Shown one piece after another: positions 438 to 20,075 of a stretch of DNA of 64,000 bases. Made by a program: the position numbers and the translations under genes. The stretch is from Nitrospira sp. (GTDB taxonomy: Bacteria > Nitrospirota > Nitrospiria > Nitrospirales > Nitrospiraceae). The notes below the pieces were generated by a model. It had not been told where the DNA came from, did no database searches, and saw only the letters and a program-made list of their open reading frames with translations. Within the stretch, counting starts at the first letter, position 1. Each line of letters opens with the position of its first letter. The stretch spans positions 62,001 through 126,000 of the forward strand of contig JAURZE010000038.1 in the NCBI GenBank assembly GCA_030653545.1. The letters run 5' to 3'.

Positions 438-1043
438 ATGGACCCCTCGTCGCAACACGCCGCCTCAAACATTGACCCAAAGCTGCTGGCCCGGGTGGTC
501 AAGGGAGACCACCAGGCATTCAGTCAGCTCTACGATCAATCCAGTACGCTCTTGTATACGATGGCACTGCGCATTCTCGGCAATCGCGATGAAGCGGCTG
601 AACTCCTCCAGGATGTCTACCTGGAGGTCTGGCGCAAAGTCTCACGCTACGATGTCGGACGGGGAACCCCTGTAGCCTGGCTGGTCACGCTGACGCGGAG
701 CCGGGCCATCGATCGACTCCGGGCCCGGGCCTCCCGGGGCCTGAATAAGTCGACGGAATCCCTGGACAGCTCATCGGCCTCCCAGATCGCCGATCGAGGT
801 CCCAACCCTTTTGACGCCCAAGCCGATCAGGAAATTCGAACTTTGGTGGGAGGCGCGCTGGCGGCGCTCCCGCAAGCCCAACAACATGCGCTGGAATTGG
901 CCTACTACGAAGGGCTGTCCCACGCAGAAATCGCAGCCCGGCTGAATCAGCCGCTCGGAACCGTGAAGACCAGAATCAAGCTGGGCATGTCCAAGCTTCG
1001 GGAGTCGCTCCGGCGCTGTTGGGAACAGGGTGAACACGTATGA
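438..1043 (+). CDS. ECF-type RNA polymerase sigma factor
   Basis: This 201-residue protein is a sigma-70-family extracytoplasmic-function sigma factor. It has the two expected domains: region 2 around residues 25-95 (the LYTMALRILGNRDEAAELLQ stretch, then a WRKVSRYD segment and LTRSRAIDRLR) and a C-terminal region 4 helix-turn-helix around residues 135-190 (ALPQAQQHALELAYYEGLSH, then GTVKTRIKLGMSKLR). No extra domain is visible. The stop overlaps the start of the anti-sigma factor gene by ATGA, so the two are translationally coupled. The pairing resembles SigK/RskA systems. The signal sensed and the regulon cannot be read from the sequence. There is no clear Shine-Dalgarno before the ATG. Confidence 0.9.
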   Translation: MDPSSQHAASNIDPKLLARVVKGDHQAFSQLYDQSSTLLYTMALRILGNRDEAAELLQDVYLEVWRKVSRYDVGRGTPVAWLVTLTRSRAIDRLRARASRGLNKSTESLDSSSASQIADRGPNPFDAQADQEIRTLVGGALAALPQAQQHALELAYYEGLSHAEIAARLNQPLGTVKTRIKLGMSKLRESLRRCWEQGEHV

Positions 1044-2059
1044 CCCACGAAGAACTCGAAGAAGCCGTCCCGCTGTATGCTGCCGGCGCGCTCGAACGCT
1101 CCGAGCGGCAGGCGCTCGAAGCCCATCTGCTCTCGGGTTGCGTCTCGTGCCATACGGCGCTCAAGGAGTTCCAGTCGGTAGCGGCCATTCTGCCGTTCGG
1201 ATTGAGTTCGGCGCCGGCTCCGCGGGCCCTGAAAGCGAAAATCATGGCCGCGCGGACGCCGACCGCTATCGCCGAAGATGCTCAAGACAAAGTCGACGTG
1301 AAGCCAAGCCTGGAACCGGGCGAATGGATGAACCATCTCTTCCCTCCGGAATCCGCAACCGCGCCGAGATCGTTTGGGTGGGCCTTAAGCTTCGCCGCAT
1401 TGGCCATTCTCTCCATCGGAGGCTACCTCGCGTGGACCTCCTACACGCAAAACGTCACCGGCACCGCCGTTGTCCAGCAGCTCCAAGCGGCTTCGGATGA
1501 CCAGACGAAGAAGGTCGCCGCGCTCCAGCAGCAACTGGACGAGCGGGAACGCACGATCGTTCAAATGAAGGAAGAGTTGCAGCAACGCACAACCGACTCA
1601 ACAGAACTGAAGGATCAGCTCATTCAACGCGAGGCGGAGCTCGAAGATCTGAAGTTCCAATTTGCTGCGCGCGGGGGAGTGCCGCCTGCCAACCGTGAAC
1701 CGGAAGATGAGCTCGCCGCCCTACTCCGCGTTCCGAACGCAAAAGCCGTCTCACTCAATGGATCAGACATGGCCAAGCAAGCGTCCGGCATGCTCGTCTA
1801 CGATGCCCGGACCAAGAAGGCCTGGCTCTACGCCATGAATCTTCCGGAATGCCCCAACGGCACCACGTATCAACTCTGGGCCATCAATGACAAGCCGGTC
1901 AGCGTGGGAACCTTCCATATGGACAGCGGTGAAACTGCGCATCTCCTGGTCAGCCGGGTCCCGGAATTCTCCAAGACCAAAAAGTTTGCCGTCAGCCTTG
2001 AGCCTTCAGGGGGCCGTCCCACGCCGACCGGTCCGATCTATCTGGTCAGCCAGTCGTAA
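1040..2059 (+). CDS. membrane-anchored anti-sigma factor, RskA-like with zinc-finger N-terminus
   Basis: This 339-residue protein is the predicted partner that holds the preceding ECF sigma factor inactive at the inner membrane. The N-terminus carries an H-x3-C-x2-C signature (AHLLSGCVSCH, about residues 29-39), as in zinc-binding anti-sigma domains. A single transmembrane helix follows at about 113-133. A long Gln/Glu/Lys-rich coiled coil (about 145-210) leads to a periplasmic RskA C-terminal domain (about 225-339, with YQLWAIND and the SLEPSGGRPTPTGPIYLV end). Known relatives are released by regulated proteolysis. The coiled coil between membrane and sensor domain is longer than in the simplest RskA proteins. 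Confidence 0.85.
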   Translation: MTHEELEEAVPLYAAGALERSERQALEAHLLSGCVSCHTALKEFQSVAAILPFGLSSAPAPRALKAKIMAARTPTAIAEDAQDKVDVKPSLEPGEWMNHLFPPESATAPRSFGWALSFAALAILSIGGYLAWTSYTQNVTGTAVVQQLQAASDDQTKKVAALQQQLDERERTIVQMKEELQQRTTDSTELKDQLIQREAELEDLKFQFAARGGVPPANREPEDELAALLRVPNAKAVSLNGSDMAKQASGMLVYDARTKKAWLYAMNLPECPNGTTYQLWAINDKPVSVGTFHMDSGETAHLLVSRVPEFSKTKKFAVSLEPSGGRPTPTGPIYLVSQS

Positions 2060-2654: not shown

Positions 2655-3455
2655 TCATCCGTTGCGTGTTGCGCAGGGATTGATCGCCCAATCGAATCCT
2701 TGCGCTGCAACCGCACCGACCCATCCGGGTCCGCAATCCAGGGTCTTCACGACCCAGGGTACTTGTGACTGTCCTGCGAGTCGCACGGGCACTCCGTCGC
2801 GATCCGATCCGTTTGACCAGTCGATTTCACAAGCCTGCAGCGAGGCTAATCCTACCCCTTCGGCTTTCAGAACTGCTTCTTTCGCAACCCAGTAGTGAAA
2901 GAACTCCGAATTGCGTGATTCGGATACAGTGGATTGCAAGAGCAGGTGCTCGCGGTCGGAGAAGAATCGCTCAGCCAGCTTGAGCACTTCTACGTCCTCC
3001 CTGATCATTTCCAGATCTACCCCAACATCTCGACCCTGCGCGACCGCGACCATGGCGTTCCCATGCGCATGCGAGAGATTGAAGTTCAATATCGCACTCT
3101 CCCGCCGGAGACCTCCTAATGTCGGCTTTCCAGTGGGAGTCGAACCGAACTCGATGCGGGCCGGGTCGAGGCTGAGATAGAGCCCTAAGATGAACCGCAA
3201 CCCTCCGTGAGACAGCACATACCGCTCGCGGTCCTGCCGTCGAAGAAATCTGGCAGCCCTTGCACGTTCCTGTTGGTCAAGCCAATCCAGACACCGATCG
3301 TACTCGATACCCTCACCGGCTAGAGTCAGTGGCCAGAGATCGATCGTCGCGGCAGGAAGCGACCGACAGCGTGCGACAGGCGCCGTAAACAGGTCTCGAA
3401 TCGGGGAGAATTCCACACTGACACTCGCCTGCATCCTGACCGATCGTGGGTTCAT
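2655..3455 (-). CDS. Sfp-type 4'-phosphopantetheinyl transferase
   Basis: This 266-residue enzyme transfers phosphopantetheine from CoA to carrier domains. The diagnostic motifs are GVDLE (about residues 144-148) and WVAKEAVLKAEG (about 188-199), which carry the metal- and CoA-binding residues. An N-terminal FLRRQDRERYVLSHGGLRF segment is also typical of the Sfp/Gsp subfamily. It is the last gene of the minus-strand operon NRPS-ABC-PPTase, 34 bases after the ABC gene. The obvious substrates are the three carrier domains of the upstream synthetase. The length is normal for the subfamily and nothing appears missing. Confidence 0.9.
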   Translation of the reverse strand: MNPRSVRMQASVSVEFSPIRDLFTAPVARCRSLPAATIDLWPLTLAGEGIEYDRCLDWLDQQERARAARFLRRQDRERYVLSHGGLRFILGLYLSLDPARIEFGSTPTGKPTLGGLRRESAILNFNLSHAHGNAMVAVAQGRDVGVDLEMIREDVEVLKLAERFFSDREHLLLQSTVSESRNSEFFHYWVAKEAVLKAEGVGLASLQACEIDWSNGSDRDGVPVRLAGQSQVPWVVKTLDCGPGWVGAVAAQGFDWAINPCATRNG

Positions 3456-3489: not shown

Positions 3490-5124
3490 TCAGGAGGAGA
3501 CGACTTTCCCGTTCTCCAGCTTAATGACCCGATCGCCGAGATGGAAATACCGGTCATCATGCGTAATGACCACCACACTCTTCCCTCTCGCACGAAGTTC
3601 CGGCAATAGCTTCATATAAAAGACGTCCTTGTACTGCGGATCCTGATCGGCCGCCCACTCATCGAACACATACACCGGCCGGTCTTCCAGATAGGCCGTC
3701 AGCAGAGCCAGGCGTTTTCGCTGGCCCTGGGATAAATCGATTGTCGAGAATTTGCGCTCTCTCACCTCCACCTTGTGGTCAAGCTGCAAGCTGGAGAGAT
3801 ACGCGGCCGCCGATGTCCGAATTCGCTCTTCTTCAATGCCTAACAGTTTCTCAAATAAGTGAAAATCAGAAAACACCACCGAGAAATGCTCGCGGTACCA
3901 GTCGCGGTTGGCATCCGAGATCAAGATCCTATTTAAGGACACCTCGCCCGAGTGCGGAACATACAAGCCGGCAAGCAGTTTGACGAACGTCGACTTCCCG
4001 CTGCCATTTCCCCCGATCACAAACGACAATTCCCCGGGACACAGCTTCAGGCTGATGGGACCGAGTGAAAATGGGTCGTTGCCCCGACTGTCTGTCGCAT
4101 ATTGAAACGTGACTGACTCTAATGTCAGGGACTCCATCTTTCCTGCCGTCACCAGTGGAACGACGTTGTGGCGGCTCTCAGCGGGTGTGTCCAAGGACAC
4201 GCCCAATCTTTGAATATTCTCAAACGCGACCTGTCCGCGTTCAACCGTCGGCAGGGTGCCGATAATCCCCCAAATGGGAGACATCATATACAGCAATACC
4301 ACGACATACCCGATCAATGACTCCGTCGAAAGCGGAAACATCAAGGGAAATACAAACAGGATAATGCCAATCATGGAATAAAAGGCGAAATGGGACCAGG
4401 CCTCGGCAATCGCATATTGTCTGGAGGCATCGATACTGGTTCGCCGGTACAGATCGGCCGCTCCGTGGAGCTCCTGATCAATAAACTCTTTGCGCCTTTG
4501 CCTGTGAAGGGTCAACTCCTTGATCCCTTCCGTCAAAGACCGGAAATGTCTGAATAGCTGAGCTCTGGCCTCACGGGATGAGTAGATGGTCGAAAAGGCC
4601 CTGGTATGCAACCAATGATATCCCCACGCCCCCAGCAATGTGGCCGTCACGACGAGCAGAAACGTCGGCCAAGACAACCAGAGAAGATAGACCCCGCACC
4701 CGAGGACAATAGCCACATTCATCGCCAATTGCGGCAAACATTGGATCGACCACGCAAGCATGCTCACGTCGTCAGTCAGGGTGACCAGAATATTCGCATG
4801 ACCGTACGCCTCAGTGCGTCGATACGGAGATTTGAGAATCTTCTCACAGAGCGTCAGGGAGAGGTCGAGGGTCGTGTCTTGAGCAAAGCGCGCCAGGGTC
4901 AATTGCGACACAATCTGAGTGGCGAGCTTCCCTGCAACGACTGCGACAAACCCGAACGCCAGGAGAGCTTCCTGATCATGCCGCTGTTGCAGGACTCGAT
5001 TGATCAAGGCCAGCACGCCCGCGCTACAGAGTCCGGACACCACACCCACACTGACCATGGCGGCCATCACGGAACGTGAGCGCTGGAACAGAAACGAGAC
5101 GAACCCTGGGAGGCGGATGTTCAT
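3490..5124 (-). CDS. cyclic-peptide-export-type ABC transporter (permease-ATPase fusion)
   Basis: This 544-residue half-transporter has about six N-terminal membrane helices (roughly residues 15-290) fused to a C-terminal ATPase. The Walker A is GGNGSGKST (about 373-381), the signature LSQGQRKRLALL lies near 468, and the Walker B YVFDEWAADQDP near 485. The tail of the nucleotide-binding domain includes VVITHDDRYF. The architecture matches the SyrD/PvdE family, which exports non-ribosomal peptides across the inner membrane. Its ATG overlaps the stop of the synthetase gene (ATGA), so it is very likely translated with it and exports its product. The signature reads LSQGQ rather than LSGGQ, which is common in this family. 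Confidence 0.88.
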   Translation of the reverse strand: MNIRLPGFVSFLFQRSRSVMAAMVSVGVVSGLCSAGVLALINRVLQQRHDQEALLAFGFVAVVAGKLATQIVSQLTLARFAQDTTLDLSLTLCEKILKSPYRRTEAYGHANILVTLTDDVSMLAWSIQCLPQLAMNVAIVLGCGVYLLWLSWPTFLLVVTATLLGAWGYHWLHTRAFSTIYSSREARAQLFRHFRSLTEGIKELTLHRQRRKEFIDQELHGAADLYRRTSIDASRQYAIAEAWSHFAFYSMIGIILFVFPLMFPLSTESLIGYVVVLLYMMSPIWGIIGTLPTVERGQVAFENIQRLGVSLDTPAESRHNVVPLVTAGKMESLTLESVTFQYATDSRGNDPFSLGPISLKLCPGELSFVIGGNGSGKSTFVKLLAGLYVPHSGEVSLNRILISDANRDWYREHFSVVFSDFHLFEKLLGIEEERIRTSAAAYLSSLQLDHKVEVRERKFSTIDLSQGQRKRLALLTAYLEDRPVYVFDEWAADQDPQYKDVFYMKLLPELRARGKSVVVITHDDRYFHLGDRVIKLENGKVVSS

Positions 5125-8100
5125 GCGGACTGATTGTTGCGAGCCGGAGTTCCAATTCCTGCGGCACGCTCCGGACTCGTCTGGAGGTAATTCTGCAAAT
5201 GGCCGGCCAGTTCTTCAACAAACGGCGACACGAATAGACGTCCCGAATCCTCGGCTGGAATATGCACGGTGCAACTCGACCCCGCTCCTAGCTCCTGCCA
5301 GCGATGCCGAGTGTCCGGAATGACATCCTCGACATGCCGATTAGAAGCCACCACATTCACGACCTCTGCAGAAGTCGGCACCACATGATACCGGGCCACT
5401 GCAAGGAGCGTGGCTTCCGTCAAGCGCTGCACTTGGAAATCCCTGTCCTGGATATGATCCGTGAGGGACTGTGAAAATAAAGACAGTGCGACCTGAGTCT
5501 TGCGTGTAAGAGTCACCCACCACTCGTTCATCGGTAACCGCGAGATGCCTCGGATATCTCCGACAACCTTGCCCAGCACGATCATGGACATGAAGGCTTT
5601 CGCGACCAGACGATGCTTATACCTGCTGTAAGAATCAGGATGCCACGTGTCCATCATGAAGAGAGTGACCTGGCAACCCAGCGCTGTGAGCTGCCTGGCC
5701 ATTTCATAGCCAATCAGCCCTCCGGTACAGACTCCCCCGATCAGATATGGTCCATCAGGATGCATGCGCCGCACTTCCTGCACATAGTGAGCGGCCATCT
5801 CCGACACGGAGATGAACGGCGTTTCCTTACCATCGAGCCCTCTCGCCTGCAGTCCGTAGAGCGGCTGGTCCGTCCCGAGAAGACGTGCCAGCTTGGCAAA
5901 GACCAGCACGTTTCCTCCGACACCCGGCACCATAAACAACGGCACTCCGGTTCCGCTGGGCTGTATCGCGACCAGAGACTGCCACGGGGGAACCCAACTC
6001 GCTTTGGTCAACACAGACGCAAGCTCGGCTATCGTGGGAGCTTGAAACAACGTGGCCAAGGGAAGCTGTTTCCCAAACACGAGTTCCAGCTGATAAAACA
6101 GCTGCGCGGCCTTAAGTGAATGTCCGCCGAGATCAAAGAAATTGTCGTGAATTCCGATGTCCTGCATCCCAAGTACCTGTTGCCACAACGCCGTCAGCTG
6201 GACCTCCATTCCATTTCGAGGCCCGACATAGGGCTGGCCGGCCGTATGGCTCGTCATCTCCGGCGGAGGCAAGGCACGCACATCAATTTTCTTATTGGCC
6301 GTTAAGGGGAATGCGTCAAGGAACACAAAGAAGGAAGGCACCATATACTCCGGCAGCACCGCTCGTAGAAAGGAACGCAGTTCTTCCGCTCCCGCATCCT
6401 GTCCGTCCTGCAAAACCAGATATGCCGCCAGCTGCTTCAGGCCGTGCTGATCGTCCCGTGCCGTTACAACCGCTTGTTTGATCTTGGTGTGGCGACTGAG
6501 GATGGCCTCGATTTCGCCAAGCTCGATACGGAATCCCCGGATTTTCACCTGATGATCAATCCGGCCCAGATGGACAATTTTCCCATCGGTTCGATAGCGT
6601 CCGAGATCACCGGTCCGATAGAGCCTGGCAGCGGGATGAAGTGAGAACGGATGAGGGATAAATCTGTCTGCCGTGAGGTCCGTGCGGCCATGATATCCCC
6701 GCGCCACCCCATCCCCTCCGATATAGATCTCTCCGGCTACACCGACCGGGACCGGCTGTAAATAGGGATCGAGCACATACACATCCGTATTCGCGATCGG
6801 ACGACCAATCGTGATTTCCGGAATATCCGAGCTGATTCGCTCGACGGTCGACCAGATCGTCGTTTCCGTCGGACCATACATGTTCCAGAGCGCTTTGGTT
6901 CGATCACGCAACGCGATCGCAAGATCCTGCGGGAGCGCCTCGCCTCCACAGAGAGCGGTCAACGACGGACTCCCGGTCCATCCCGCCTCAAGGAGAAGCC
7001 GCCAGGTTGCGGGAGTCGCCTGCATGATGGTCGGCTGCACTCGTTCGAGGGTGTCACGAAGCTTATGTCCGTCAGTTGCAACCGCTCGACTGACAATCTC
7101 AACCCGCCCTCCGACAAGGAGTGGCAGATAGAGTTCCAACCCCGCGATGTCGAACGACAGAGTCGTGACGGAGAGAATGATGTCTCCCCGAGTACAGCCC
7201 GGCTGGCGCTTCATGGACCACAGGAAATTCATCAGGGAACGATGCCGGATTTCCACACCCTTCGGTTGCCCGGTCGATCCTGAGGTATAGAGTATGTACG
7301 CAAGATCATCGGCTGAGGCCGAGGACGGGAGGTTATGCTCGTCGTCTGGAGAAAAGACGTGCCCCTCGCGATCAAGGCACCAGGTACGACACGATTGACC
7401 ACTGAAACGATCGGCTAACGGGCTAGTCGTGATGACGAGCGGGGCTCCGGAGTCTTCCACCATAAACCTGACGCGATCGCGCGGATAATCCGGATCCAGC
7501 GGGACATAACACCCTCCCGCCTTCATCACCGCAAGCAACACCGGAACCATATCCACTGACCGCTCCAGACACACGCCGACAGCCACCCCCGAAGAGACGC
7601 CGATTGCCCGCAAGGCTCGCGCCAACTGGTTCGCCTTCCCGTTGAGCTGACGATACGTGAGAACGCGCTTATCCATCGAAACAGCTACGGCTTCAGGATG
7701 GTCCTCAGCCTGTATTTCAATATGCTCCGGCAGACAGTCCGTGTGTGGATACTCAGCCGTCGTCCGATTCCACTCATACAGGATGCGTGACCGCTCTGTT
7801 TCCCCAAGCATTTTCAGCTCGGACACTCGAGCCTGCGGGTTCGACATCGCACTCTCGATCAACGCCAGATAATGTCCGGCAAAGCGCTCAATAGTCTCGC
7901 GCACGAATAGCGCTGAATTGAAGGTGAAGTACGCCTTCTTCGCGACTTCCAATTCGATGGACAGACTCAGATCGAACTGGGCAGAGCCAGGCTCGACCTC
8001 GAATGGCTCCCACTCCAACCCATAGAGTTGGATATCTCCAATCGGAGCATTGGCCATGTTGAATAACACCTGGACCAACGGGGCCATACTCGCATCACGT

Positions 8101-11100
8101 TCGATCTGAAGACTTTCCACCAGTTTGTCGAAGGGATAGTCCTGGTTGGCAAAGGCACCCAACGCAGCATTCTTGACACGCTCCAGAAAACCTTCAAACG
8201 AAGGATTGCCGCTGACATCGACTCGTAACGCCAAGGTATTGACGAACGTTCCAATCAACTGCTCCATCAGCATATGCGTCCGGTTCGCAATCGGACAGCC
8301 GACGGCCAGATCCACCTGCCCCGTATAGCGGCTCAAGAGCAGCTGGAAGCAGGCTAACATCGTCATAAAAGGGGTCACGTGTTGTTCGGCACTGAACTGT
8401 TTGAGTCGCTGGATCACGGAATCCGGAATATCTACCGCGCACAACCCTCCCTCGAAGGTTTGGACGGCCGGACGAGGAAAATCTGTCGGAAGGTGCAGGA
8501 TAGGTAGATGCTCCAGCGTTTTTGTCCAGTACTGTTCTTGAGCCGCTAACACTGCTTCCGTCATACACCGACGCTGCCACACCGCGTAGTCCGCGTATTG
8601 GATGGGCAAGGTCATTTCGGGCAACGGTTGCCCCTGACATAACGCATTATAGTATGCGGCGAAATCGCGTCCGAGGATTCCAAAGGACCATTGATCCCCG
8701 ACAATATGATGAAGATTGAGGACAATCAGATGGTCTTCTTGATCGAGAGTGATCAGCGAGATTCTCGCGAGCGGCCCTTTCTCGAGATCAAACGGACGAG
8801 CCCCTTCCTGTTCGGCAATTCGTCGGGCTTCTCCCTCGCGTTGATCCGCTGGAATTCTGCGGAGGTCGATTTCAACCAGGTGAGGAGACTCCCAGGACGC
8901 AATTCGTTGCTCCAACCCGGCCCCGGTCATCGCAAAGGTTGTTCGAAACGCTTCGTGGCGTTGGGAGAGCAAATTCACGACCTGCCGGATCACCGGTACG
9001 CTCATTCCTCCCTTATGTCGAGAGACGAAGAGGAGATTATACGCAGTCGCCTCCGGCGCCAATTGTTGAACAAACCACATGCGCTGCTGGGAGAATGACA
9101 GCGGCAACGACCCGTCACGCGAGACCGGCACGATCGGCGGCAATGGTGACGGAGCATTCCCTCGATGCTGTTCCACTCGAATCAACTCAGCGACACCGGC
9201 AATCGTTGGTGACTCGAACATCGAGCGCAACGGAAGCTCCACGCGGAACACTTCGCGAATGCGCGAGATGACCTGTGTGGCCAAGAGAGAATGGCCGCCC
9301 ATGGCAAAGAAGTTTCGATGGATGTCGATCGTCTGCTCTCCCAGCACCTCCCGCCAAATCTCAAGCAGGCCCTGTTCAATCGGATCGCGGGCCCGAACGG
9401 AGGCTGTGTCGCTCCGGTTCTCGCCCAGCGTATGTTGTTGAAGAGCCAGACGATCAACTTTGCCATTGGGTAGGTACGGAATGGCATCGACCACACACAC
9501 GGCGGCAGGAACCATGTAGGAGGGAAGTGTCCGCTTGAGAAGCTCATGCAAATAGGGACTCGTTGATCCCGGCACCTGATCGGACATTACAAAGGCAATG
9601 AGGCTTGGCCCTGTCGTCATGTCCTCTCGTACCACCACGGCAGCGGCGCGGACACCCGGTAACCCGCTCAAGGCAGATTCGATGTCCCCAAGCTCAATCC
9701 GATACCCCCGCACTTTCACCTGGCTGTCCGCACGCCCGACATATTCGAGATTCCCGTCTTGACGCATCAGCCCAAGATCACCCGTCTTGTAGAAACGGGT
9801 TCCCGGCACAAACGGATTCGAAAGAAACTTGGCACTCGTCAGTTCCGGAAGATTCAGATACCCTCGTGCCAAACTAGCCCCGCCGATCACAATCTCTCCC
9901 ACCACCCCGACAGGAATCGGGGACAACCCTTCATCAAGCAAATAGATGGCGGCCCCGGCGATGGGCGTTCCTATTGGAATGCGCCCTCCCAACTCAGTTC
10001 CAGTCGTCTTATACACAGTCGACCACACCGTCGCTTCCGTCGGCCCATACTCGTTATACAGCGCCGCCTCCTGAAGCCGTTCATAGTGCCGCCGCACCAG
10101 CAATACCGGGAGACTTTCTCCGGCGGACACCACCACCCGAAGTGACTGCAGTGCGGCTGCTGCCACGTCACGCAGCATCGCCTCGTATAACGACGGCACG
10201 AGTACAATGTGAGACACCTGATGCCGGGAGATCAGCGCACCGATTTGAACCGGATCCCGATAATTGTCTTCCGTTGGAATGACGAGAGTCCCAGCGTGGA
10301 GCAGCGTCCAGAACATGCTCGTCACGGACCCGTCAAACGCAATCGGAAAGGTCAGGAGGCAACACTCGACCGGATCTTTATAATACTGTAGGCGTGCCAG
10401 AAGGGAATGCAGGAGCGCCCCGTGCGTAATCTCGACGCCCTTGGGTCGCCCCGTCGACCCGGAGGTGTAGATCACATAGGCGGCATGGTCGATCCCCAAT
10501 TGCGGCCATGCCACGTGTGCCTCGTGACGCTGAGCTTCTCCTGCGAGCGACTCCAATTCAATAACCGGCCCACCACCGTATGGAAGCGTCGCCCGCAGAT
10601 GCTGCTGCGTCACCAGGAGCGCGACACCGGCATCCTCGAGAATCAATCTCTGCCGTTGCTCCGGCGCACTGGCATCCAAGGGCACATACGCAGCGCCGGC
10701 CTTCAGAATGCCAAGAATCCCGATGAGACTTGAGACCGATCGATCGACGCACAACCCTACCCGGACGTTTCTTCCTCCCGTGACTGCATACACCGCACTG
10801 GCAAGCTGATCTACACGCACAACGAGCTCGCGATAGGACAGCCGGTCTTCTCCGCACACCACCGCCGTCCTTTCGGGATCTTGCTTGATGCGAGCCTCGA
10901 TCATCGGCAGGATGGAAGTGGCCTGCTGCACGTCGACCGTAGTCCGGTTCCACTCGACCAAGAGCTGCCGTCGTTCGTCTTGCGTCAGCAGCGGGAGATC
11001 GAGCAGCCGCGAAGCGGGGTTTGCAATCAGGCCGGAGAGAATCATTTCGATTTGGGCAAGCATGCGGTCGACCGTTCCACCGTCGAACAATGCTCGGTCA

Positions 11101-14100
11101 TAGAGCATCACCAGCTCAAGCCCCTCGATCCCATTGACGACCAATAGCGTGAGATCAAGCTCGACGGCCACATCATCAAGCGGGACATGTCTGACCGACA
11201 ATCCCTCGAGATGCAACTCGCTGAGAGGATCGTCCTCCCATACGATCATGACATTGAACACATGCGGCGAGTCTGCGGCTCTTCGTCCCTTGAGCGCACC
11301 GATCACTCGTTCGAACGGAACATCTTGATGGTCATAGGCATCGCCTACGGTCTGGCGAGCGCGACGGAGGAGCTGCTCGCCGGTCTCGACATCGGAGAGG
11401 TCCATGCGCAAGGCCACGGTATTGGCGAAATACCCCACCACATCCTGCCAGTGCGATTGACGACGATTCGCCAATACCGTCCCAACGACGATATCGGTTG
11501 TCCGGGTGGCGCGTTGGAGCCAGGCGCACAACGCGGAATAGACCGCCATGAATTTGGTCGTGCCCTGCCGGCTGCAGAACGCTCCCAGGTCAGCCACCAT
11601 CGATTCGGGAAGCGCGCGGATTCTTGATCCTCCCTGGAACAACGGCACACGCGGGCGCGGGCGGTCAGCAGGCAGGTCCAGTACCGATGGCATGCGGTCC
11701 AACTGGCGCTGCCAGTATCCCAGCTGAGCGACGTATCGTTCACTCTCCAACTGGTTCCTCTGCCATTGGCTGAATTCAAGATACGATCGCGGCGAACGCG
11801 CGGGAATCATCGCCGGATCTTTCGGTCGCGACCTGTACTGTTGCGTAAGTTCCCGGCACAGCAACCGCAAGGACCACCCATCCGAGACAAGGCGATGAAC
11901 GGTTAGGATGCAGAGGTGCTCCCCATCTTCTATCTCAAGAAGAAATGTCCTGAGCAAGGGTGGGCACCCCAAATCAAATGGAACAAGGACTTCTTCCCGA
12001 ATCCTCCGGCGGATTTCTGCGTCACGGTTTGAAGGAGAGAGATCGCGCAAGGAGGCCCGGGTGACCTTCGCGGCGGCTTTGGTCGAAGTCGCCTGATAGG
12101 GAAGCTCCCCAACTGAGGCAAACCCCATCCTCAATATGTCATGCCGCTGTACAAGCTCCTGGATGCTGGCATCGAAGGCCGGAAGATCTAACGGTCCGGA
12201 CAGCCTCATCCCGATGGAAATATGATTCAACGCGCTGCCAGGCTGTACTTGCTCCAAAAACCATAACCGCTCTTGACTGCAGGAAAGCGGAGACCGACCC
12301 ACTTCCCCGTCCTCTGCCTGCAGGCCTCTCCCCTCAGATTCCGGCCCGCCGGCCTGGCCACGCAAGCTCCGCTCTGGTCCGAAAGCTGGCTCCGAGAGCG
12401 CCGTCTGAAGATAGGCCGCGAGATCCCGCACCGTCCCCTGGCCAAATAACTGGCCGAATGAAAGTTCAACCCCGCACTCCTGTTCAAGTCGATTCTTGAC
12501 CAGGCTGGTACCGAGGGAGTCTAACCCAATATTGACCAAGGGCATTCCCGCTTCAATTTTGGAGACGGGGAGCCCTGACTGTTCTGCGAATACACGCTGC
12601 ACATAACTTTCAAGCCCTTCGCCGCGCTTCAACAGGTCGTGAACCTTTCGAGAGCCTTCAGCGATCGACCCCGAACTAGTCACGGCCGCTTCAGCCGGGA
12701 GCATCAGTGTGGAAAGCACGGCCAGCGACTGTTCCAGATATGCTTTTCGACAGGCTTGTCGTTGCACTTTTCCGCTTGAAGTCTTGGGAATCACCCCATG
12801 CCGCGCCAGGACAACCCCCCACACCGGCACTTCAAACCGTTCTGCCAGAGTGACGCGAACGGCCGTCGCCACCTCTTCAGCCCGCAGCTCCTGTTGGCGA
12901 TCGACTTCAAGCACAATAATCAAACGCTCGACCTCGTCCACTTCGACTGAGAAAGCCACGCATCCACCGCTCCGTGCCATGGGGTGGCAGACTTCAACGG
13001 CTGCTTCCAAGTCTTGAGGATAGATATTCCTCCCGTTCAGAATGATCAGATCTTTGAGACGACCGGTAATGACGACCTGTCCTTCACTGAAGAACCCCAA
13101 GTCTCCCGTACGGAGAAAATGTTCCTCGGGCCGACCGGAAACCTGAGCGTTGAATACCTCGATGGTCGCCTCAGCCCTCCGCCAATACCCTAAGGCCACG
13201 CTAGGACTGGACACCCAGATCTCTCCGACTTGGCCGGCGGCACATTCGAGGCCACTACCCGGTTCGACGATGATGACCTGCGAACCTGGAAGCGGACGAC
13301 CACACCCCACAAGCTCGCGTACACCCACATCATCCGGCCTTCGGACTTCGACCCGATGTGATTCAAGCGCAGCCGAATCCACCGTGATCATATGGGGTGC
13401 TTCAGCCCGCGCGGTGCTGGACACCACCAGGGTGGCCTCAGCCAACCCATACGCCGGCATGAATGCATTCCCCTTGAATCCGTGGGGGGCAAACACTTGG
13501 GTGAACGTATTGATGGTCCGGTGATGAATAGGCTCGGCTCCACAACTGGCCACCGCCCAGCGCGCAAGATCACCGGACCAGCCCGGTTGTTTTTGAAAAG
13601 CCTTCACACAAGCATCGTAGGCAAAGCTCGGAGCGCCGCTATGCGTGATATCCCACCGGTCGATGGCTTCAAGCCAGCGGAGTGGCCGCCGAAGAAATGT
13701 AAGCGGTGATAAGAGGAACGCCGGAATGCCCCCATATAAGGGTGCAAGAATCCCGTGCACCAATCCATAGTCGTGAAAATACGGGAGCCAGCACAACGAG
13801 CGGCTCTCCGCATTGACTCCTGCTGTCTGATGAATAGCTTCACATTGAGCCAGGACGTTGCGGTGACTGACCATCACACCACGTGGTGTCGCCGTTGAAC
13901 CTGACGTATATTGCAAATAGGCGAGATCCGAGATCGGCGAACGGTGTTCCAGGCTCGGCCACCCCTCACCCGTCGGTTGATCAGTGGCGAGCCATTGGAC
14001 CTGGCGATCCGGTGCCACGAGGGATTGCTCCGCACACAGGGTCTGGATGCCAGCCGTCGTCAGAACGAGCGCGGCTTGCGCATCATCCAGGATGGCCTGT

Positions 14101-14429
14101 AGGCGCGAGAGGCTGTGCTTGCGCCTGATGGGATCCGGCGCGGGAGCTGGAACGGGAACGAGGCCGGCTTGGATACAAGCCCAGAAGGCCACGACCACTT
14201 CGAGCCCAGGGGGATAAATGAGGAGCGCGCGAGTACCCGGCTCAGCGCGCGCCCCCAGAGCCATTGCAAGCACGTTCACTTCACCTGCAAGTTCAGCCCA
14301 GGTAAGTTGACGGTCTATCGCAACAGTATCTTTGAGATAGGCATAGGCCAACCCGCCGCCGGCCTGCTCACAGCGGTAGGCAAATAATTCGACCAGGGTG
14401 CGGATTGAACTAGGTACTGATTCGCTCAT
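5121..14429 (-). CDS. lipopeptide-type NRPS: FAAL-PCP-C-A-PCP-C-A-PCP-TE
   Basis: This giant synthetase of about 3,102 residues is numbered from the ATG at 14429. An in-frame TTG at 14474 would add 15 residues, and neither start has a good ribosome binding site. Approximate domains: fatty-acyl-AMP ligase 1-585 (YTSGSTATPRGVMVSHRN, APSFAYD); carrier 1 with Ser638; condensation 1 at 715-1140; adenylation 1 at 1170-1660; carrier 2 with Ser1714; condensation 2 at 1780-2210; adenylation 2 at 2230-2720; carrier 3 with Ser2771; thioesterase 2825-3085. Read by eye, specificity residues give about DGTLVAEVW for A1 (closest to a Tyr code I remember) and DILQLGMIW for A2 (a Gly code). The expected product is an N-acyl dipeptide. 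Oddities: condensation 1 reads HRLVSDG (H845, R846) instead of HHxxxDG; condensation 2 reads HHIVGDQ; the thioesterase nucleophile motif is GVCTG, with Cys2901 in place of Ser. Exporter and phosphopantetheinyl transferase genes follow in the operon. Confidence 0.92.
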   Translation of the reverse strand: MSESVPSSIRTLVELFAYRCEQAGGGLAYAYLKDTVAIDRQLTWAELAGEVNVLAMALGARAEPGTRALLIYPPGLEVVVAFWACIQAGLVPVPAPAPDPIRRKHSLSRLQAILDDAQAALVLTTAGIQTLCAEQSLVAPDRQVQWLATDQPTGEGWPSLEHRSPISDLAYLQYTSGSTATPRGVMVSHRNVLAQCEAIHQTAGVNAESRSLCWLPYFHDYGLVHGILAPLYGGIPAFLLSPLTFLRRPLRWLEAIDRWDITHSGAPSFAYDACVKAFQKQPGWSGDLARWAVASCGAEPIHHRTINTFTQVFAPHGFKGNAFMPAYGLAEATLVVSSTARAEAPHMITVDSAALESHRVEVRRPDDVGVRELVGCGRPLPGSQVIIVEPGSGLECAAGQVGEIWVSSPSVALGYWRRAEATIEVFNAQVSGRPEEHFLRTGDLGFFSEGQVVITGRLKDLIILNGRNIYPQDLEAAVEVCHPMARSGGCVAFSVEVDEVERLIIVLEVDRQQELRAEEVATAVRVTLAERFEVPVWGVVLARHGVIPKTSSGKVQRQACRKAYLEQSLAVLSTLMLPAEAAVTSSGSIAEGSRKVHDLLKRGEGLESYVQRVFAEQSGLPVSKIEAGMPLVNIGLDSLGTSLVKNRLEQECGVELSFGQLFGQGTVRDLAAYLQTALSEPAFGPERSLRGQAGGPESEGRGLQAEDGEVGRSPLSCSQERLWFLEQVQPGSALNHISIGMRLSGPLDLPAFDASIQELVQRHDILRMGFASVGELPYQATSTKAAAKVTRASLRDLSPSNRDAEIRRRIREEVLVPFDLGCPPLLRTFLLEIEDGEHLCILTVHRLVSDGWSLRLLCRELTQQYRSRPKDPAMIPARSPRSYLEFSQWQRNQLESERYVAQLGYWQRQLDRMPSVLDLPADRPRPRVPLFQGGSRIRALPESMVADLGAFCSRQGTTKFMAVYSALCAWLQRATRTTDIVVGTVLANRRQSHWQDVVGYFANTVALRMDLSDVETGEQLLRRARQTVGDAYDHQDVPFERVIGALKGRRAADSPHVFNVMIVWEDDPLSELHLEGLSVRHVPLDDVAVELDLTLLVVNGIEGLELVMLYDRALFDGGTVDRMLAQIEMILSGLIANPASRLLDLPLLTQDERRQLLVEWNRTTVDVQQATSILPMIEARIKQDPERTAVVCGEDRLSYRELVVRVDQLASAVYAVTGGRNVRVGLCVDRSVSSLIGILGILKAGAAYVPLDASAPEQRQRLILEDAGVALLVTQQHLRATLPYGGGPVIELESLAGEAQRHEAHVAWPQLGIDHAAYVIYTSGSTGRPKGVEITHGALLHSLLARLQYYKDPVECCLLTFPIAFDGSVTSMFWTLLHAGTLVIPTEDNYRDPVQIGALISRHQVSHIVLVPSLYEAMLRDVAAAALQSLRVVVSAGESLPVLLVRRHYERLQEAALYNEYGPTEATVWSTVYKTTGTELGGRIPIGTPIAGAAIYLLDEGLSPIPVGVVGEIVIGGASLARGYLNLPELTSAKFLSNPFVPGTRFYKTGDLGLMRQDGNLEYVGRADSQVKVRGYRIELGDIESALSGLPGVRAAAVVVREDMTTGPSLIAFVMSDQVPGSTSPYLHELLKRTLPSYMVPAAVCVVDAIPYLPNGKVDRLALQQHTLGENRSDTASVRARDPIEQGLLEIWREVLGEQTIDIHRNFFAMGGHSLLATQVISRIREVFRVELPLRSMFESPTIAGVAELIRVEQHRGNAPSPLPPIVPVSRDGSLPLSFSQQRMWFVQQLAPEATAYNLLFVSRHKGGMSVPVIRQVVNLLSQRHEAFRTTFAMTGAGLEQRIASWESPHLVEIDLRRIPADQREGEARRIAEQEGARPFDLEKGPLARISLITLDQEDHLIVLNLHHIVGDQWSFGILGRDFAAYYNALCQGQPLPEMTLPIQYADYAVWQRRCMTEAVLAAQEQYWTKTLEHLPILHLPTDFPRPAVQTFEGGLCAVDIPDSVIQRLKQFSAEQHVTPFMTMLACFQLLLSRYTGQVDLAVGCPIANRTHMLMEQLIGTFVNTLALRVDVSGNPSFEGFLERVKNAALGAFANQDYPFDKLVESLQIERDASMAPLVQVLFNMANAPIGDIQLYGLEWEPFEVEPGSAQFDLSLSIELEVAKKAYFTFNSALFVRETIERFAGHYLALIESAMSNPQARVSELKMLGETERSRILYEWNRTTAEYPHTDCLPEHIEIQAEDHPEAVAVSMDKRVLTYRQLNGKANQLARALRAIGVSSGVAVGVCLERSVDMVPVLLAVMKAGGCYVPLDPDYPRDRVRFMVEDSGAPLVITTSPLADRFSGQSCRTWCLDREGHVFSPDDEHNLPSSASADDLAYILYTSGSTGQPKGVEIRHRSLMNFLWSMKRQPGCTRGDIILSVTTLSFDIAGLELYLPLLVGGRVEIVSRAVATDGHKLRDTLERVQPTIMQATPATWRLLLEAGWTGSPSLTALCGGEALPQDLAIALRDRTKALWNMYGPTETTIWSTVERISSDIPEITIGRPIANTDVYVLDPYLQPVPVGVAGEIYIGGDGVARGYHGRTDLTADRFIPHPFSLHPAARLYRTGDLGRYRTDGKIVHLGRIDHQVKIRGFRIELGEIEAILSRHTKIKQAVVTARDDQHGLKQLAAYLVLQDGQDAGAEELRSFLRAVLPEYMVPSFFVFLDAFPLTANKKIDVRALPPPEMTSHTAGQPYVGPRNGMEVQLTALWQQVLGMQDIGIHDNFFDLGGHSLKAAQLFYQLELVFGKQLPLATLFQAPTIAELASVLTKASWVPPWQSLVAIQPSGTGVPLFMVPGVGGNVLVFAKLARLLGTDQPLYGLQARGLDGKETPFISVSEMAAHYVQEVRRMHPDGPYLIGGVCTGGLIGYEMARQLTALGCQVTLFMMDTWHPDSYSRYKHRLVAKAFMSMIVLGKVVGDIRGISRLPMNEWWVTLTRKTQVALSLFSQSLTDHIQDRDFQVQRLTEATLLAVARYHVVPTSAEVVNVVASNRHVEDVIPDTRHRWQELGAGSSCTVHIPAEDSGRLFVSPFVEELAGHLQNYLQTSPERAAGIGTPARNNQSA

Positions 14430-14801
14430 GCAGGCAAATAGAACAGCAGGAAACAATGAATCCGAATGACTCAATAATGGACAGATCCTATGCCGGATCA
14501 GAAGAATTTTCTACCGCTACGGAAGGATAATACGGACCGCTGCATTCCAGAAGAGATTTCCTGTTCTGCGCACAAAACAGGCCCAGGAGACTTCACGCAA
14601 CGTCATGATTCAGTGGAACAATTCATCCTACTTGGAGATTCCCAAGGCACCGTGATTCTTACCCCAATGATTTCGTGGTTAGATCGTCCACGATGAGAGA
14701 AAACTCATTGAAATATCATGCCTCTCACTGTAAGCTCCCCCCATAGCTTGATCGGTCAGGGGCGCGCGTCTTTCGGTGCCTCCCAATTCAGCACGTTGCC
14801 A
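14430..14801. other. intergenic region upstream of the NRPS operon
   Basis: About 370 bases between the synthetase start and tRNA-Ser. It should hold the promoter of the minus-strand operon. I see one striking dyad (14560-14581) and a weaker one at about 14673-14693 (TCGTGG/CCACGA arms), but no clear -35/-10 pair. A 68-codon plus-strand frame at 14490-14696 lacks supporting features. Confidence 0.5.
14560..14581. promoter_or_regulatory. perfect 22-bp dyad, possible operator of the NRPS operon
   Basis: CCTGTT and AACAGG form perfect 6-base arms around a 10-base spacer, about 130 bases upstream of the synthetase ATG. The form suggests a dimeric regulator site. The spacing is not that of the E. 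coli LexA box (CTGT-N8-ACAG; here N12), and it is 2 bases longer than a lux box. No regulator gene is adjacent. Confidence 0.4.
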
Positions 14802-14891
14802 GGAGAGGTGCCAGAGTGGCCGAATGGACTCGCCTCGAAAGCGGGCGTCCTCGCAAGGGGACCGTGGGTTCAAATCCCACCCTCTCCGCCA
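14802..14891 (+). tRNA. tRNA-Ser (anticodon CGA)
   Basis: A 90-base class II tRNA. The acceptor stem GGAGAGG pairs perfectly with CCTCTCC at 14881-14887, followed by discriminator G and an encoded CCA. The D-arm starts GCCAGAGTGGCCGAATGG, the anticodon stem-loop holds CGA at about 14835-14837, and the T-loop has GGTTCAAATCC. There is a long variable arm (GCGTCCTCGCAAGGGGAC), as expected for serine. It reads UCG codons. Confidence 0.95.
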
Positions 14892-14960: not shown

Positions 14961-16484
14961 TCATATTTTCTTCACCTTCTCTCCCAAGACCCTCCGCAAT
15001 TCGACCATCGCGAGCGTGTCGCGCTTGCAGTAGGCTAACAGTGCTTCCTGAATCCTGGCCCGCTCGATCCAGTCGCTCTCGACAAACACCATCTTGTAGT
15101 ACTCCGATGCCGCCTGCCCGCCTTCACGAATGTTGAGATCGTCATAGCGCAACGAAGGCACCAGTGTCGGCAGCACCTCCTTCAGCGAGTACGATCCGCC
15201 GAACTCCGGATGGTAGTAATGCTCTTTGACAATCGGGTGCAGATCCCAAATCCGTTTCACCAACGCCTTGAGCGCTGTTCGTAGTTCAGGGAGAAACTCC
15301 GCCAGGTGCTCGATCACAGATTTCTCATACGGGGAATAGACACAAATACTCCCCGTGCCTCCCAGGGAATCCAGAAGGGATTCGGCCAATGACTTCCGGG
15401 GATCAGTCCCTTCTGCGTGGAGGAATTCGTGATGCACGAGTTCGCCGGAAGCCTGCTCGATATGATTCGACCATTGCACCGGCAGCGCTTGATAGGGGCG
15501 CGTGCCGGCAAAGCGAGGCACGGCCAGCATGACGGTCTCAAAATCCAGGTGATGGACGGGAAACCGCACGGTCTTGAGCGCGGCTTCCAGCTTCTCGGAC
15601 ACCCACTCCACGTTGTCTTTGACCTTGCGCTGAACGGCCGAAAGCTTCGTGCCATCCGGAATCTCATCGATGGTCACGATGCCCTGCTCGGCGAGTTGAC
15701 TGGTGATCTGCTTGGCGCCAGGCAGGTGAAAGATCCACCGTGCAGGCTTCTGACTCGTGCAATGAGCCCAGAAGGGACATTCATACGGGGCAAAACAATG
15801 GCGATCCGGTTCAATCACAGGGATGGCCGGTGACAGTAACATGGTCTTCATCGCGGCTATCCGCTCCGGCACAGTCACTTGCCGCTCCAAGACAATTGAG
15901 GAGAGTTCATCGATCGCGAACAGCTCGTTCAACTCGACCTCGCCGCCGGCATAGGTATAGGCGGTATTGATGCGCATAAGATGACAGCTGACGATGTTGA
16001 GGCCTGCCCCCACGAGCACGTGGCGCTGCAGCGCCAGATCGTCCAGGTGCACATCCTTCACCTTGGTGGATGACTTGACCTCGATCAATCGCCACCCCGC
16101 CAAAGCTTCGTCTTCGCCTCGTACCCGCTCCAGAATATCCACGCGAACGAGTACGCCATCGGCCATGATCGCTGCTTCATAAATCGCCGGGACAGACTCA
16201 TCCGCCATCAGCGCGGAGGTTTGGGTGAGCGCCGCCTCGGTCTGTCGATACCCGGCTGTTACGAGACGGCCGCCGGGGAACCGGCGGCGCGCCAGCTCAC
16301 CGACTTCCGTCCCCATATCCAGGATCGCCTGCGTCCCCGCGTCAGGCGGAGTTGCAAGATAGGGCCGATGGATATCGAGATACAGGCGCTTATGACATTG
16401 GAGGCCGGAGATATATTTGGATTTCGATAAGCGCGGCGTTTTCTGCACGCCGTCTTGCGGAAGATCTGTGGCTTGTTCAGTCAT
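14961..16484 (-). CDS. DUF2779-family protein with Cas4/RecB-like nuclease and RNase H-like parts
   Basis: A 507-residue protein of the DUF2779 family. The N-terminal half resembles PD-(D/E)xK nucleases: a KSKYISGLQCHKRLYLD start with a Cys, then VRVDILERV, the WRLIEVKSST core (about residues 131-140) and a downstream cysteine group in HCFAPYECPFWAHC (about 225-238). The first Cys with the later three could bind an iron-sulfur cluster, as in Cas4/AddB. The C-terminal half starts HHLDFETVML (about 315-324), an acidic DxE motif as in DEDD-type exonucleases, with further acidic residues in YSPYEKSVIEHL and CKRDTLAMVELRRVL. Biological substrates are not known. It lies next to tRNA-Ser, on the opposite strand. 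Confidence 0.75.
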   Translation of the reverse strand: MTEQATDLPQDGVQKTPRLSKSKYISGLQCHKRLYLDIHRPYLATPPDAGTQAILDMGTEVGELARRRFPGGRLVTAGYRQTEAALTQTSALMADESVPAIYEAAIMADGVLVRVDILERVRGEDEALAGWRLIEVKSSTKVKDVHLDDLALQRHVLVGAGLNIVSCHLMRINTAYTYAGGEVELNELFAIDELSSIVLERQVTVPERIAAMKTMLLSPAIPVIEPDRHCFAPYECPFWAHCTSQKPARWIFHLPGAKQITSQLAEQGIVTIDEIPDGTKLSAVQRKVKDNVEWVSEKLEAALKTVRFPVHHLDFETVMLAVPRFAGTRPYQALPVQWSNHIEQASGELVHHEFLHAEGTDPRKSLAESLLDSLGGTGSICVYSPYEKSVIEHLAEFLPELRTALKALVKRIWDLHPIVKEHYYHPEFGGSYSLKEVLPTLVPSLRYDDLNIREGGQAASEYYKMVFVESDWIERARIQEALLAYCKRDTLAMVELRRVLGEKVKKI

Positions 16485-17922: not shown

Positions 17923-19275
17923 CTAGCAATTCGTTCGCTCTTCAGCCGGAGGTCTCGTATCCTTTCCGCTGCCCACTCGCACTTCGATCCGACCCACGCC
18001 TTTCACATTGGCGCAGAGATCGCCGAGCCCCGGTGTAATCAGACGATAGGGCCCGCCCTTTCCATCGGGCAATGGCTCGCCGTTGAGCTCGTAAAGCAGG
18101 ACGCCAAAATCTTTGGCCTGTTGGAGCGTGAGCGTAGCCGCATACTTTCCGTCAATTGAATGAAACGTCACATGATCGGCCTCGATCGCCAGTGCCGGCA
18201 CATCGAGCAAGCCCTTCACCTTGATCGCCTTCCCCGTCATACCCGGCATGACGGCGCTGACGTCTGCCACATGATGCTCCGCCGGAAGTTGCCGGAGGGC
18301 CGCATAATCAAGTGAGACCGGCTGCACCACCGCCCCGTCGATTCGCACGACTCCAGAACCCTTCTTGCCCTGCTCAGTGATCGTCTTGATCATCGCCGTC
18401 ATCGCCTCGTTCACGGGAGTCGGAATGCCCAATTCTCGCCCTTTCTGCACAATGTACCCGTTCAAATAGGCGATCTCGGTCTGCCGTCCCGCTTTCCAAT
18501 CGTCGTACATCGACGTGTGAATATCCCGGATCTCCTGCGTGGCTTTGACGACCCGCTCCGCCATATCCGCCGGCAACGGCACCTTGACCGCCGCTGAGAC
18601 CGCGGCGACTTCATCGACGATCTGATGGATCACCCGCAGCATTTCCGGATGATCCAAAGCCTTGGCCACCTTGTCGTCGATCAGCACCGTGATCGGATTG
18701 AAGACGCAGTTCCAGCACATCTTCTCCCACTTGCTCCGGCGGATATCTTTCGAGAGATGACAGGGAATACCGGCAGCCGTGAAAAGCTCCTTGATCTTGA
18801 GCACGCGCTCGCTCTCATGCCCCATCAATTCGCCGATCGCCACCGCACCCTTTTTATAGTGATCGATCACCCCGGGCTCGGCAATTTTCGAATAGATGAA
18901 GGCCACGCCGCCGACGACGCAGTCACGCGAGGTGCGTGCGATGATCCGGTCTTCGGTATCGATGCCGTTCTGCAAGGTCAGGATGACGGTCTTCTCCGTC
19001 AACACCGGTTCGATCTGCGCCATGACCTCATCAAGGTCGAACGCCTTCACACCGAGAATAACCAAGTCAGGCTGGGGCAATTCCCTGGGATCCGCCGCGG
19101 CCTGCGGATGGACCGTGAACGTCCCGCTCGCACTGCGGATCGTCAACCCGCTCTGCTTCACCGCTGCCAAGGTCTTCGGCCTGAGGAGAAACGACACGTG
19201 AGGATTGTTCTTGGCGAGATGCGCGCCGAAAAATCCGCCCACTGACCCGGCACCGACGACTAGAATGTTCTTCAT
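17923..19275 (-). CDS. panE: 2-dehydropantoate 2-reductase fused to a molybdopterin-oxidoreductase-like domain
   Basis: The protein is 450 residues from the ATG at 19275, which has an AGGGAG ribosome binding site; upstream codons in the frame are unlikely to be used. The N-terminal 310 residues are a ketopantoate reductase: NAD(P)-binding GAGSVGGFFGAHLA at 7-20, LQNGIDTED near 105, RRSKWEKMCWN near 180. It would reduce ketopantoate to pantoate in coenzyme A synthesis. The remaining 140 residues are extra (KGLLDVPALAIEADHVTFHS, LYELNGEPLPDGKGGPYRLI, CANVKGVGRIEV) and resemble the sulfite-oxidase-type molybdopterin-binding fold. This domain is not part of normal PanE and probably does not bind a complete cofactor. 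coaX, another step of the same pathway, is 8 kb away. Confidence 0.82.
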   Translation of the reverse strand: MKNILVVGAGSVGGFFGAHLAKNNPHVSFLLRPKTLAAVKQSGLTIRSASGTFTVHPQAAADPRELPQPDLVILGVKAFDLDEVMAQIEPVLTEKTVILTLQNGIDTEDRIIARTSRDCVVGGVAFIYSKIAEPGVIDHYKKGAVAIGELMGHESERVLKIKELFTAAGIPCHLSKDIRRSKWEKMCWNCVFNPITVLIDDKVAKALDHPEMLRVIHQIVDEVAAVSAAVKVPLPADMAERVVKATQEIRDIHTSMYDDWKAGRQTEIAYLNGYIVQKGRELGIPTPVNEAMTAMIKTITEQGKKGSGVVRIDGAVVQPVSLDYAALRQLPAEHHVADVSAVMPGMTGKAIKVKGLLDVPALAIEADHVTFHSIDGKYAATLTLQQAKDFGVLLYELNGEPLPDGKGGPYRLITPGLGDLCANVKGVGRIEVRVGSGKDTRPPAEERTNC

Positions 19276-19334
19276 GTTCACTCCCTTATTTACGGACAGC
19301 GTACTATAGCAGGCGACCGAACTAGGATAAAATA

Positions 19335-20075
19335 GTGCGCATGAGTTCCACCCCGCTGCATGAGGCGCAATCCCGCCTCGCATCCGCACAAGCCATCACG
19401 ATCTTGACCGGGGCCGGTGTCTCCGCCGACAGCGGCGTGCCGACATTTCGCGGAATCGACGGACTATGGCGCAATTTTCGAGCGGAAGAACTAGCGACAC
19501 CGGACGCGTTTGAGCGAGACCCCAGGCTGGTATGGGAATGGTACAACTGGCGGCGGGAATTAATTGCCACGAAACGACCCAACGACGCTCACGTCGCCAT
19601 CGCATCATTGGAATCGCGCCGCCTCGATTTCTGGCTCATCACTCAAAATGTAGATGGCCTCCACAGGCAGGCCGGATCCACCCAGCTCTCGGAAATTCAC
19701 GGCAACATCTGGATGGTCCGTTGCACGGGATGTGGTGCGGCGACAGAGAACCACCAGGTACCGCTACCGCTCCTGCCCCATTGTGGACCGTGCGGAGGGC
19801 TCTTGCGTCCTCACATCGTCTGGTTTGGTGAATCCTTACATGAGGACGATCTTGCCCGCTGCGCACAACACCTACAGGCCTGTGATGTGCTGCTCGTAAT
19901 CGGCACTTCCGGCGTGGTCTATCCGGCAGCCGGGTTTGCCTCGATTGCAAAGGACGCCGGAGCCACGGTCATTGAAGTGAATCTCGACCAGACTCCCCAA
20001 TCAGACCTGGTAGATATTTCCTTGCGCGGCCGCGCGAAGGAGCTCGTCCCGCTTTTACTACAGGCGGGCAAGTAG
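19335..20075 (+). CDS. cobB: NAD-dependent protein deacylase (sirtuin class III, CobB-like)
   Basis: A 246-residue sirtuin that removes acyl groups from lysines using NAD+. NAD-binding GAGVSADSGVPTFRG lies near residues 27-41, the catalytic ITQNVDGLHRQAG near 106, and the HGN general base near 125. Four zinc cysteines are in CTGC (about 133-136) and CGPC (about 154-157). A YNWR motif (about 67-70) matches the Tyr-x-x-Arg pair that gives SIRT5 and E. coli CobB desuccinylase/demalonylase activity. I start at GTG 19335, since AGGAT at 19324 is well spaced from it; an ATG two codons later is possible. It overlaps the HAD gene tail to tail by 18 bases. Confidence 0.9.
   Translation: MRMSSTPLHEAQSRLASAQAITILTGAGVSADSGVPTFRGIDGLWRNFRAEELATPDAFERDPRLVWEWYNWRRELIATKRPNDAHVAIASLESRRLDFWLITQNVDGLHRQAGSTQLSEIHGNIWMVRCTGCGAATENHQVPLPLLPHCGPCGGLLRPHIVWFGESLHEDDLARCAQHLQACDVLLVIGTSGVVYPAAGFASIAKDAGATVIEVNLDQTPQSDLVDISLRGRAKELVPLLLQAGK

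Follow-up and report, generated by a model that had tools for sequence, protein, structure and literature searches.

A putative fatty acyl-started, two-module peptide synthetase of Nitrospiraceae with a constant glycine module and a cysteine thioesterase lacking the expected histidine

Introduction

What would a nitrite-oxidising bacterium assemble on a single large nonribosomal peptide synthetase (NRPS), and how would the finished chain leave an enzyme whose terminal thioesterase lacks the histidine expected of such domains? Both questions are raised by a locus of Nitrospira sp. (GCA_030653545.1), analysed here within a window of 64,000 nt, the whole stretch from 62,001 to 126,000 of contig JAURZE010000038.1 on the forward strand, to which all coordinates below refer. 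The genome comprises 3.94 Mb in 39 contigs, and its closest named relatives are Nitrospira sp. metagenome-assembled genomes (MAGs) at 85-91%. Members of Nitrospira are major nitrite oxidisers, including complete ammonia oxidisers, and live in biofilms and flocs. NRPS clusters have been counted in Nitrospira MAGs from activated sludge and their gene cluster families compared (PMC9765116); these clusters may include the present locus, and the part of that text covered here contains no gene-level analysis of the synthetase. A search of the literature found no report of its product.

The reading that we prefer, with a probability of about 0.7, is that the locus encodes an assembly line for a lipodipeptide of the form N-acyl-X-Gly, which would be held as a thioester on the cysteine of the thioesterase, released by a non-classical route and exported, the chemistry being deduced from the domains and their motifs.

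Organization of the locus

The synthetase occupies one uninterrupted frame on the minus strand (5121..14474) and comprises 3117 amino acids in the order FAAL-T-C-A-T-C-A-T-TE, that is, a fatty acyl-AMP ligase (FAAL), carrier (T), condensation (C) and adenylation (A) domains, and a thioesterase (TE). The frame opens with TTG at 14474 and its first ATG, at 14429, is residue 16 and a possible alternative start; the span of 5121-14429 given in the initial annotation is thus the same reading frame counted from the first ATG. Pfam models identify three AMP-binding, three PP-binding, two Condensation and one Thioesterase domains, and the order C-A-T occurs twice after FAAL-T, in agreement with the two amino acid modules proposed earlier. 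The serine motifs of all three carriers are intact (GLDSL in T0, GGHSL in T1 and in T2).

Two further genes on the minus strand complete the operon. The first (3490..5124), whose start overlaps the synthetase stop by four bases as judged from the coordinates, encodes a cyclic-peptide-type ABC exporter of 544 amino acids that scores 466 bits against the cyclic peptide export model TIGR01194 (cut-off 286), a family that we take to cover SyrD and PvdE. The second (2655..3455) begins 34 bases beyond the exporter gene and encodes a Sfp/HetI-type phosphopantetheinyl transferase (PPTase) of 266 amino acids (PF01648, PF22624). Gene order and domain matches therefore bear out the single operon of synthetase, exporter and PPTase that the initial annotation described. 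An ECF sigma and anti-sigma factor pair (438-2059, plus strand), which is found beside the locus in other clades also, could be a candidate regulator of the operon.

A search of the whole genome for condensation domains returned only the two in this protein, which by that measure is the only NRPS of the genome. The same architecture, whole or as parts cut by contig ends, is present in a relative with 98% identity (G120) and in about 60 related loci, so the locus is not an artefact of assembly.

Loading domain and acyl starter

The first domain (residues 28-586; 12717..14393, minus strand) is matched by PF23024 and by FAAL models of NCBIfam. Against the PDB its 18 best chains are all FAAL or FAAL-like, with E-values from 4e-133 (7r7e) to 5.7e-54, and the best matches include 3kxw, FadD23, FadD28 and FadD32. 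A chain annotated as CoA ligase or synthetase first appears at 1.8e-25, more than 100 orders of magnitude below the top match. On this ranking a CoA ligase is rejected as the first domain. The grouping with acyl-CoA ligases that the initial annotation had named as the weak point of its FAAL assignment was thus looked for, and the domain groups with FAALs instead. Carrier T0 (12375..12632, minus strand), whose GLDSL motif is GGNSL in most relatives, directly follows the FAAL domain. A literature search on Nitrospira together with FAAL gave no mention of a FAAL among the matches listed.

Amino acid selection and condensation

Module 1 consists of C1 (10935..12293), A1 (9420..10907) and T1 (9180..9371), and module 2 of C2 (7782..9110, motif HHIVGDQW), A2 (6270..7718) and T2 (6009..6212), all on the minus strand. 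Extraction of the specificity codes gave DGTLVAEVWK for A1 and DILQLGMIWK for A2, so both codes previously read by eye were right. The A2 code is an exact published glycine code, recorded in glycine domains by a survey from 2025 that covered 2051 A domains (PMC12283262). A large alignment of the family holds 63 rows, in which some species are present twice, two genome collections having been combined; with rows cut by contig ends excluded from the counts, 59 A1 and 55 A2 codes are complete, and 55/55 of the latter read DILQLG[MVL][IV]WK. This supports an A2 domain that is predicted from its code to be glycine-specific and is constant across relatives.

The A1 codes vary. The clade of the window has DGTLVAEVWK; most other clades have DGTWIAEVWK or DGTWVAEVWK, one has DTEDIGTVAK or similar, and two rows have DALFIGAVAK. 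The DGT-type pocket is presumably closest to tyrosine codes (DGTITAEVAK shares 7/10 positions with A1), and the DTED type, in whose pocket two residues are acidic, may take a basic residue. Literature searches on specificity-code strings found no assigned tyrosine code, and phmmer searches with A1 and A2 placed gramicidin synthetase chains first, which carries no substrate information. Of the substrates originally claimed, glycine at module 2 stands by virtue of its exact published code, and tyrosine at module 1 is not established; the first residue (X) is perhaps aromatic, with a tyrosine-like pocket in the clade of the window. In a MAG labelled Nitrospira lenta the synthetase (L022:3522-12824) is broken up over two frames, and its A1 code, DVAWIGEIWK, is an odd one; this copy is either a broken gene or an assembly fault.

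The C1 domain departs from the usual HHxxxDG motif. It reads HRLVSDG, with Arg861 (11892..11894, minus strand) in place of the second histidine, where C2 has HHIVGDQ. HRxxxDG is found in C1 of 48/49 DGT-type rows with a complete code, the exception (L029) having HH, and all nine DTE, DQE and DAL rows have HH. The role of the second histidine of C domains is debated, its mutation not always being fatal, and according to a figure legend of the same paper the X domain carries HRxxxDG (PMC11546977). C1 thus shares its arginine with the X domain of glycopeptide synthetases, but its match to ordinary C domains (Txo1, E 8e-79) is far stronger than that to the X domain 4tx2 (E 9e-37), so that an inactive domain of that kind is rejected, and it occupies a condensing position. 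A literature search on HRxxxDG was unproductive. Because C1 is close to ordinary C domains and is placed where condensation must occur, it is taken as active, as far as sequence comparison can indicate.

The C1 motif type and the A1 code type vary together across the rows, and the C1-A1 half of the protein differs between clades more than the remainder. The DTED clade shares 26-28% identity with the window over C1 and 37-40% over A1, but 45-51% over C2, A2 and TE; the DALF rows share 36% over C1 and 39-40% over A1, but 68-70% over A2. Trees built by a quick method and with long branches place the DALF rows beside the DTED clade when C1-A1 is used and beside the DGT groups when C2-TE is used. 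From these sequences it looks like the C1-A1 unit has been exchanged between lineages, although an old divergence combined with rapid evolution of that half may instead account for the pattern.

A cysteine thioesterase without histidine

The terminal domain (5175..5987, minus strand) was compared across 56 rows containing a TE, of which two identical rows were dropped to leave 54 distinct sequences. The nucleophile position, Cys2916 in the motif GGVCTGG (5727..5729, minus strand), is cysteine in 54/54, and the GxCxGG elbow is invariant down to 35% identity. The loop after beta-8 in which the catalytic histidine is expected reads PAEDSG here (5241..5258, minus strand); it contains any histidine in only 3/54 sequences, at differing positions, and the residues at the histidine site of the family are E, R, N, A and others. 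Two more distant cysteine TEs keep the histidine there, as PGH in L082 and GGH in L079, and it was through these that the column was placed, hhalign to E. coli EntF having given a confident alignment for the front half of the domain alone. Neither the TE without histidine nor the arginine of C1 had been noted in the initial annotation. There is no invariant histidine column anywhere in the TE; the four commonest hold histidine in 49, 46, 42 and 40 of the 54 sequences, none of them at the canonical loop.

The acid position after beta-6 is aspartate in 27, asparagine in 18 and glutamate in 9 of the 54, aspartate being kept in the clade of the window, and D3054-T-R3056 is invariant (54/54). Position 2942 is D or E wherever an ABC gene is adjacent (36/36) and N wherever it is not (18/18); the association is weak and may reflect one event, because all sequences of the N type belong to a single clade.

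A predicted model of the domain (pLDDT 81, pTM 0.76, 35 sequences) has the full alpha/beta hydrolase fold of NRPS thioesterases. In structural comparison AB3403 scores highest (Z 24.1, rmsd 3.9, 235 residues aligned, 23% identical), with ranks 2-5 tied with it, lying within 1 Z, and Foldseek TM scores are around 0.6. The domain therefore has the elbow nucleophile and the fold of a thioesterase, and no catalytic histidine after beta-8. A search of the literature for cysteine TEs without histidine found none, a negative result of little weight.

Two polyketide synthase (PKS) proteins from other Nitrospirota families, with modules of the order KS-AT-ACP-TE (L080:574-4479 and L081:2322-6194), also end in a cysteine TE without histidine, which contradicts the idea that the loss is unique to this synthetase family. 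The histidine-bearing TE of L082 belongs to a KS-AT-ACP-aminotransferase-C-A-T-TE hybrid (L082:4561-13356) of another Nitrospiraceae genome, G047.

Proposed route and alternatives

On the preferred reading the PPTase would arm the carriers, and the FAAL domain would convert a free fatty acid to its acyl-AMP and load the acyl group onto T0. C1, with arginine for the motif histidine, would join this acyl group to the residue selected by A1, and C2 would add glycine to give N-acyl-X-Gly, which would pass to the invariant TE cysteine as a thioester. Release, the most uncertain step of the route, would probably proceed by slow hydrolysis or with a nucleophile in the pocket as acceptor; fast ordinary hydrolysis is improbable because the TE has no histidine to activate water. 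The product would then be carried out by the ABC exporter, and export by this protein would not be universal, since the gene is missing beside the synthetase in one clade (18/54 TE rows).

An ordinary hydrolytic TE that yields a free N-acyl-X-Gly acid, as a surfactant or antibiotic, is quite possible, if against the odds. Here another residue, or water alone, would replace the histidine, which is consistent with the full TE fold of the model, with the aspartate after beta-6 that is kept in the clade of the window and with the invariant D3054-T-R3056, which could serve as a replacement network. It has to be set against the lack of a histidine that is invariant, or even frequent at the canonical loop, and from established enzymology a cysteine that no base assists should hydrolyse poorly. 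Moreover, exchange of the cysteine for serine in ObiF turns release to hydrolysis, so that the cysteine itself disfavours this outcome (PMC6668435).

More speculatively, and with considerable doubt, the terminal domain may be a histidine-independent cysteine acyltransferase that passes the chain to an amine, alcohol or thiol, giving glycine-linked lipopeptide conjugates such as a signal, an envelope lipid or a modified protein; X would then be exchanged between lineages by C1-A1 swaps, with glycine and the mode of release fixed.

It is rather unlikely that the TE is vestigial, its cysteine being merely structural. Such a domain might be inactive, with the chain leaving T2 spontaneously, by hydrolysis or other attack, or with the help of an enzyme acting in trans. 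That every clade has lost the histidine, and one clade the acid, would fit; yet dead TEs usually lose their nucleophile, and here the cysteine and the whole elbow are conserved throughout. A short or aryl acid starter leading to a metal chelator is highly improbable, for although the exporter scores within a family that includes the pyoverdine-precursor exporter, the E-values of the FAAL matches are more than 80 orders of magnitude better than those of aryl-acid ligases, and the operon has no siderophore receptor.

Relation to known systems

The closest known relative in kind is the AB3403 or A1S_0112-0119 cluster of Acinetobacter baumannii (acinetin 505), which shares a FAAL-like ligase, a carrier, a terminal glycine module and a cysteine TE (PMC5376624, PMC11298585). 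In that cluster, however, the ligase and ACP are separate and there is a single C-A-T-TE module, whereas here the FAAL is part of the synthetase and the modules number two. Of the three cysteine TEs described as structurally known, SulM and ObiF have both Asp and His, and the Asp of AB3403 occupies its usual position (PMC11298585); in the portions of the published text covered, AB3403 is nowhere said to lack the histidine (PMC5376624, PMC11298585), in contrast to the Nitrospira TE. The TEs of obafluorin (ObiF) and sulfazecin (SulM) synthesis share the GxCxG nucleophile with the Nitrospira TE but, in the descriptions available, keep the histidine, and their Asp has shifted to the loop that follows beta-7. 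They close a strained ring through a beta-nucleophile of the final residue, a group that glycine does not possess.

FAAL-started lipopeptide synthetases in general share the FAAL-carrier-C start and differ in that the present enzyme combines a two-module size, a glycine end, a histidine-less cysteine TE and HR in C1. The parts are of known kinds, and what is new is their combination, with a fused FAAL, two modules, a fixed glycine, a cysteine TE without histidine, an HR-type C1 and a site that is filled or empty across the family. The TE in particular offers a test case for NRPS chain release with cysteine and no histidine.

Distribution and chromosomal site

The TE is present in 91/175 Nitrospiraceae genomes (E 1e-25), in 68/114 of those of good quality and in 5/22 genera; a lipodipeptide had been called unusual for this type of bacterium, which is in one sense wrong, since the synthetase is common in the family. 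One TE-positive genome is G047, with the PKS-NRPS hybrid described above and a TE at 33%, and so the synthetase itself is counted in at most 90 genomes. A phylum-wide sample of 395 genomes gave three matches outside the family, each over part of the TE only. A link to ammonia oxidation is ruled out, the TE being present in 29/61 genomes with amoA and 62/114 without AMO (lists compared by hand). The occurrence of the synthetase in about half of the sampled species, often at one site, points to an ecologically useful compound, perhaps in biofilms or flocs.

The insertion site is bounded on one edge by tRNA-Ser(CGA) (14802..14891, plus strand), and the other edge in all clades seen is DUF2779, a TM0106-type RecB-like nuclease (14961-16484, minus strand). 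At this fixed position between the tRNA and tadA, the synthetase and exporter genes are found in some genomes and missing from others. By hand count, 22 of 60 tabulated loci are flanked by DUF2779 and tadA as in the window, and four more have one of these flanks; the tRNA lies beside the synthetase in 15/16 scanned loci of this type and in 0/2 loci at a second site. At the empty sites of G121, G157 and G169, a distance of 1.1-1.8 kb separates DUF2779 from tadA, and the tRNA lies within this interval. A tblastn search of these three sites found no trace of NRPS or ABC genes, and an intact control locus was found at once. The PPTase remains at the empty site in G121 and G157 and is absent in G169; the NRPS and ABC genes thus appear to come and go beside a resident PPTase. 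The clade-specific C1-A1 halves would be a natural archive of how modules were exchanged while the site stayed the same. A second group of loci lies between cytochrome c genes and an mla operon (L031), and one clade there has lost the adjacent exporter.

Two other features of the neighbourhood may be recorded. A ketopantoate-reductase-like protein (17923-19389, minus strand; PF02558, PF08546) carries an odd C-terminal fusion to Oxidored_molyb (PF00174, 50 bits), and in other clades, too, the site is flanked by homologous reading frames of about this length. Further along the window, the segment 52001-58000 has a G+C content of 0.51-0.54, against about 0.59 around it, and is possibly an acquired segment.
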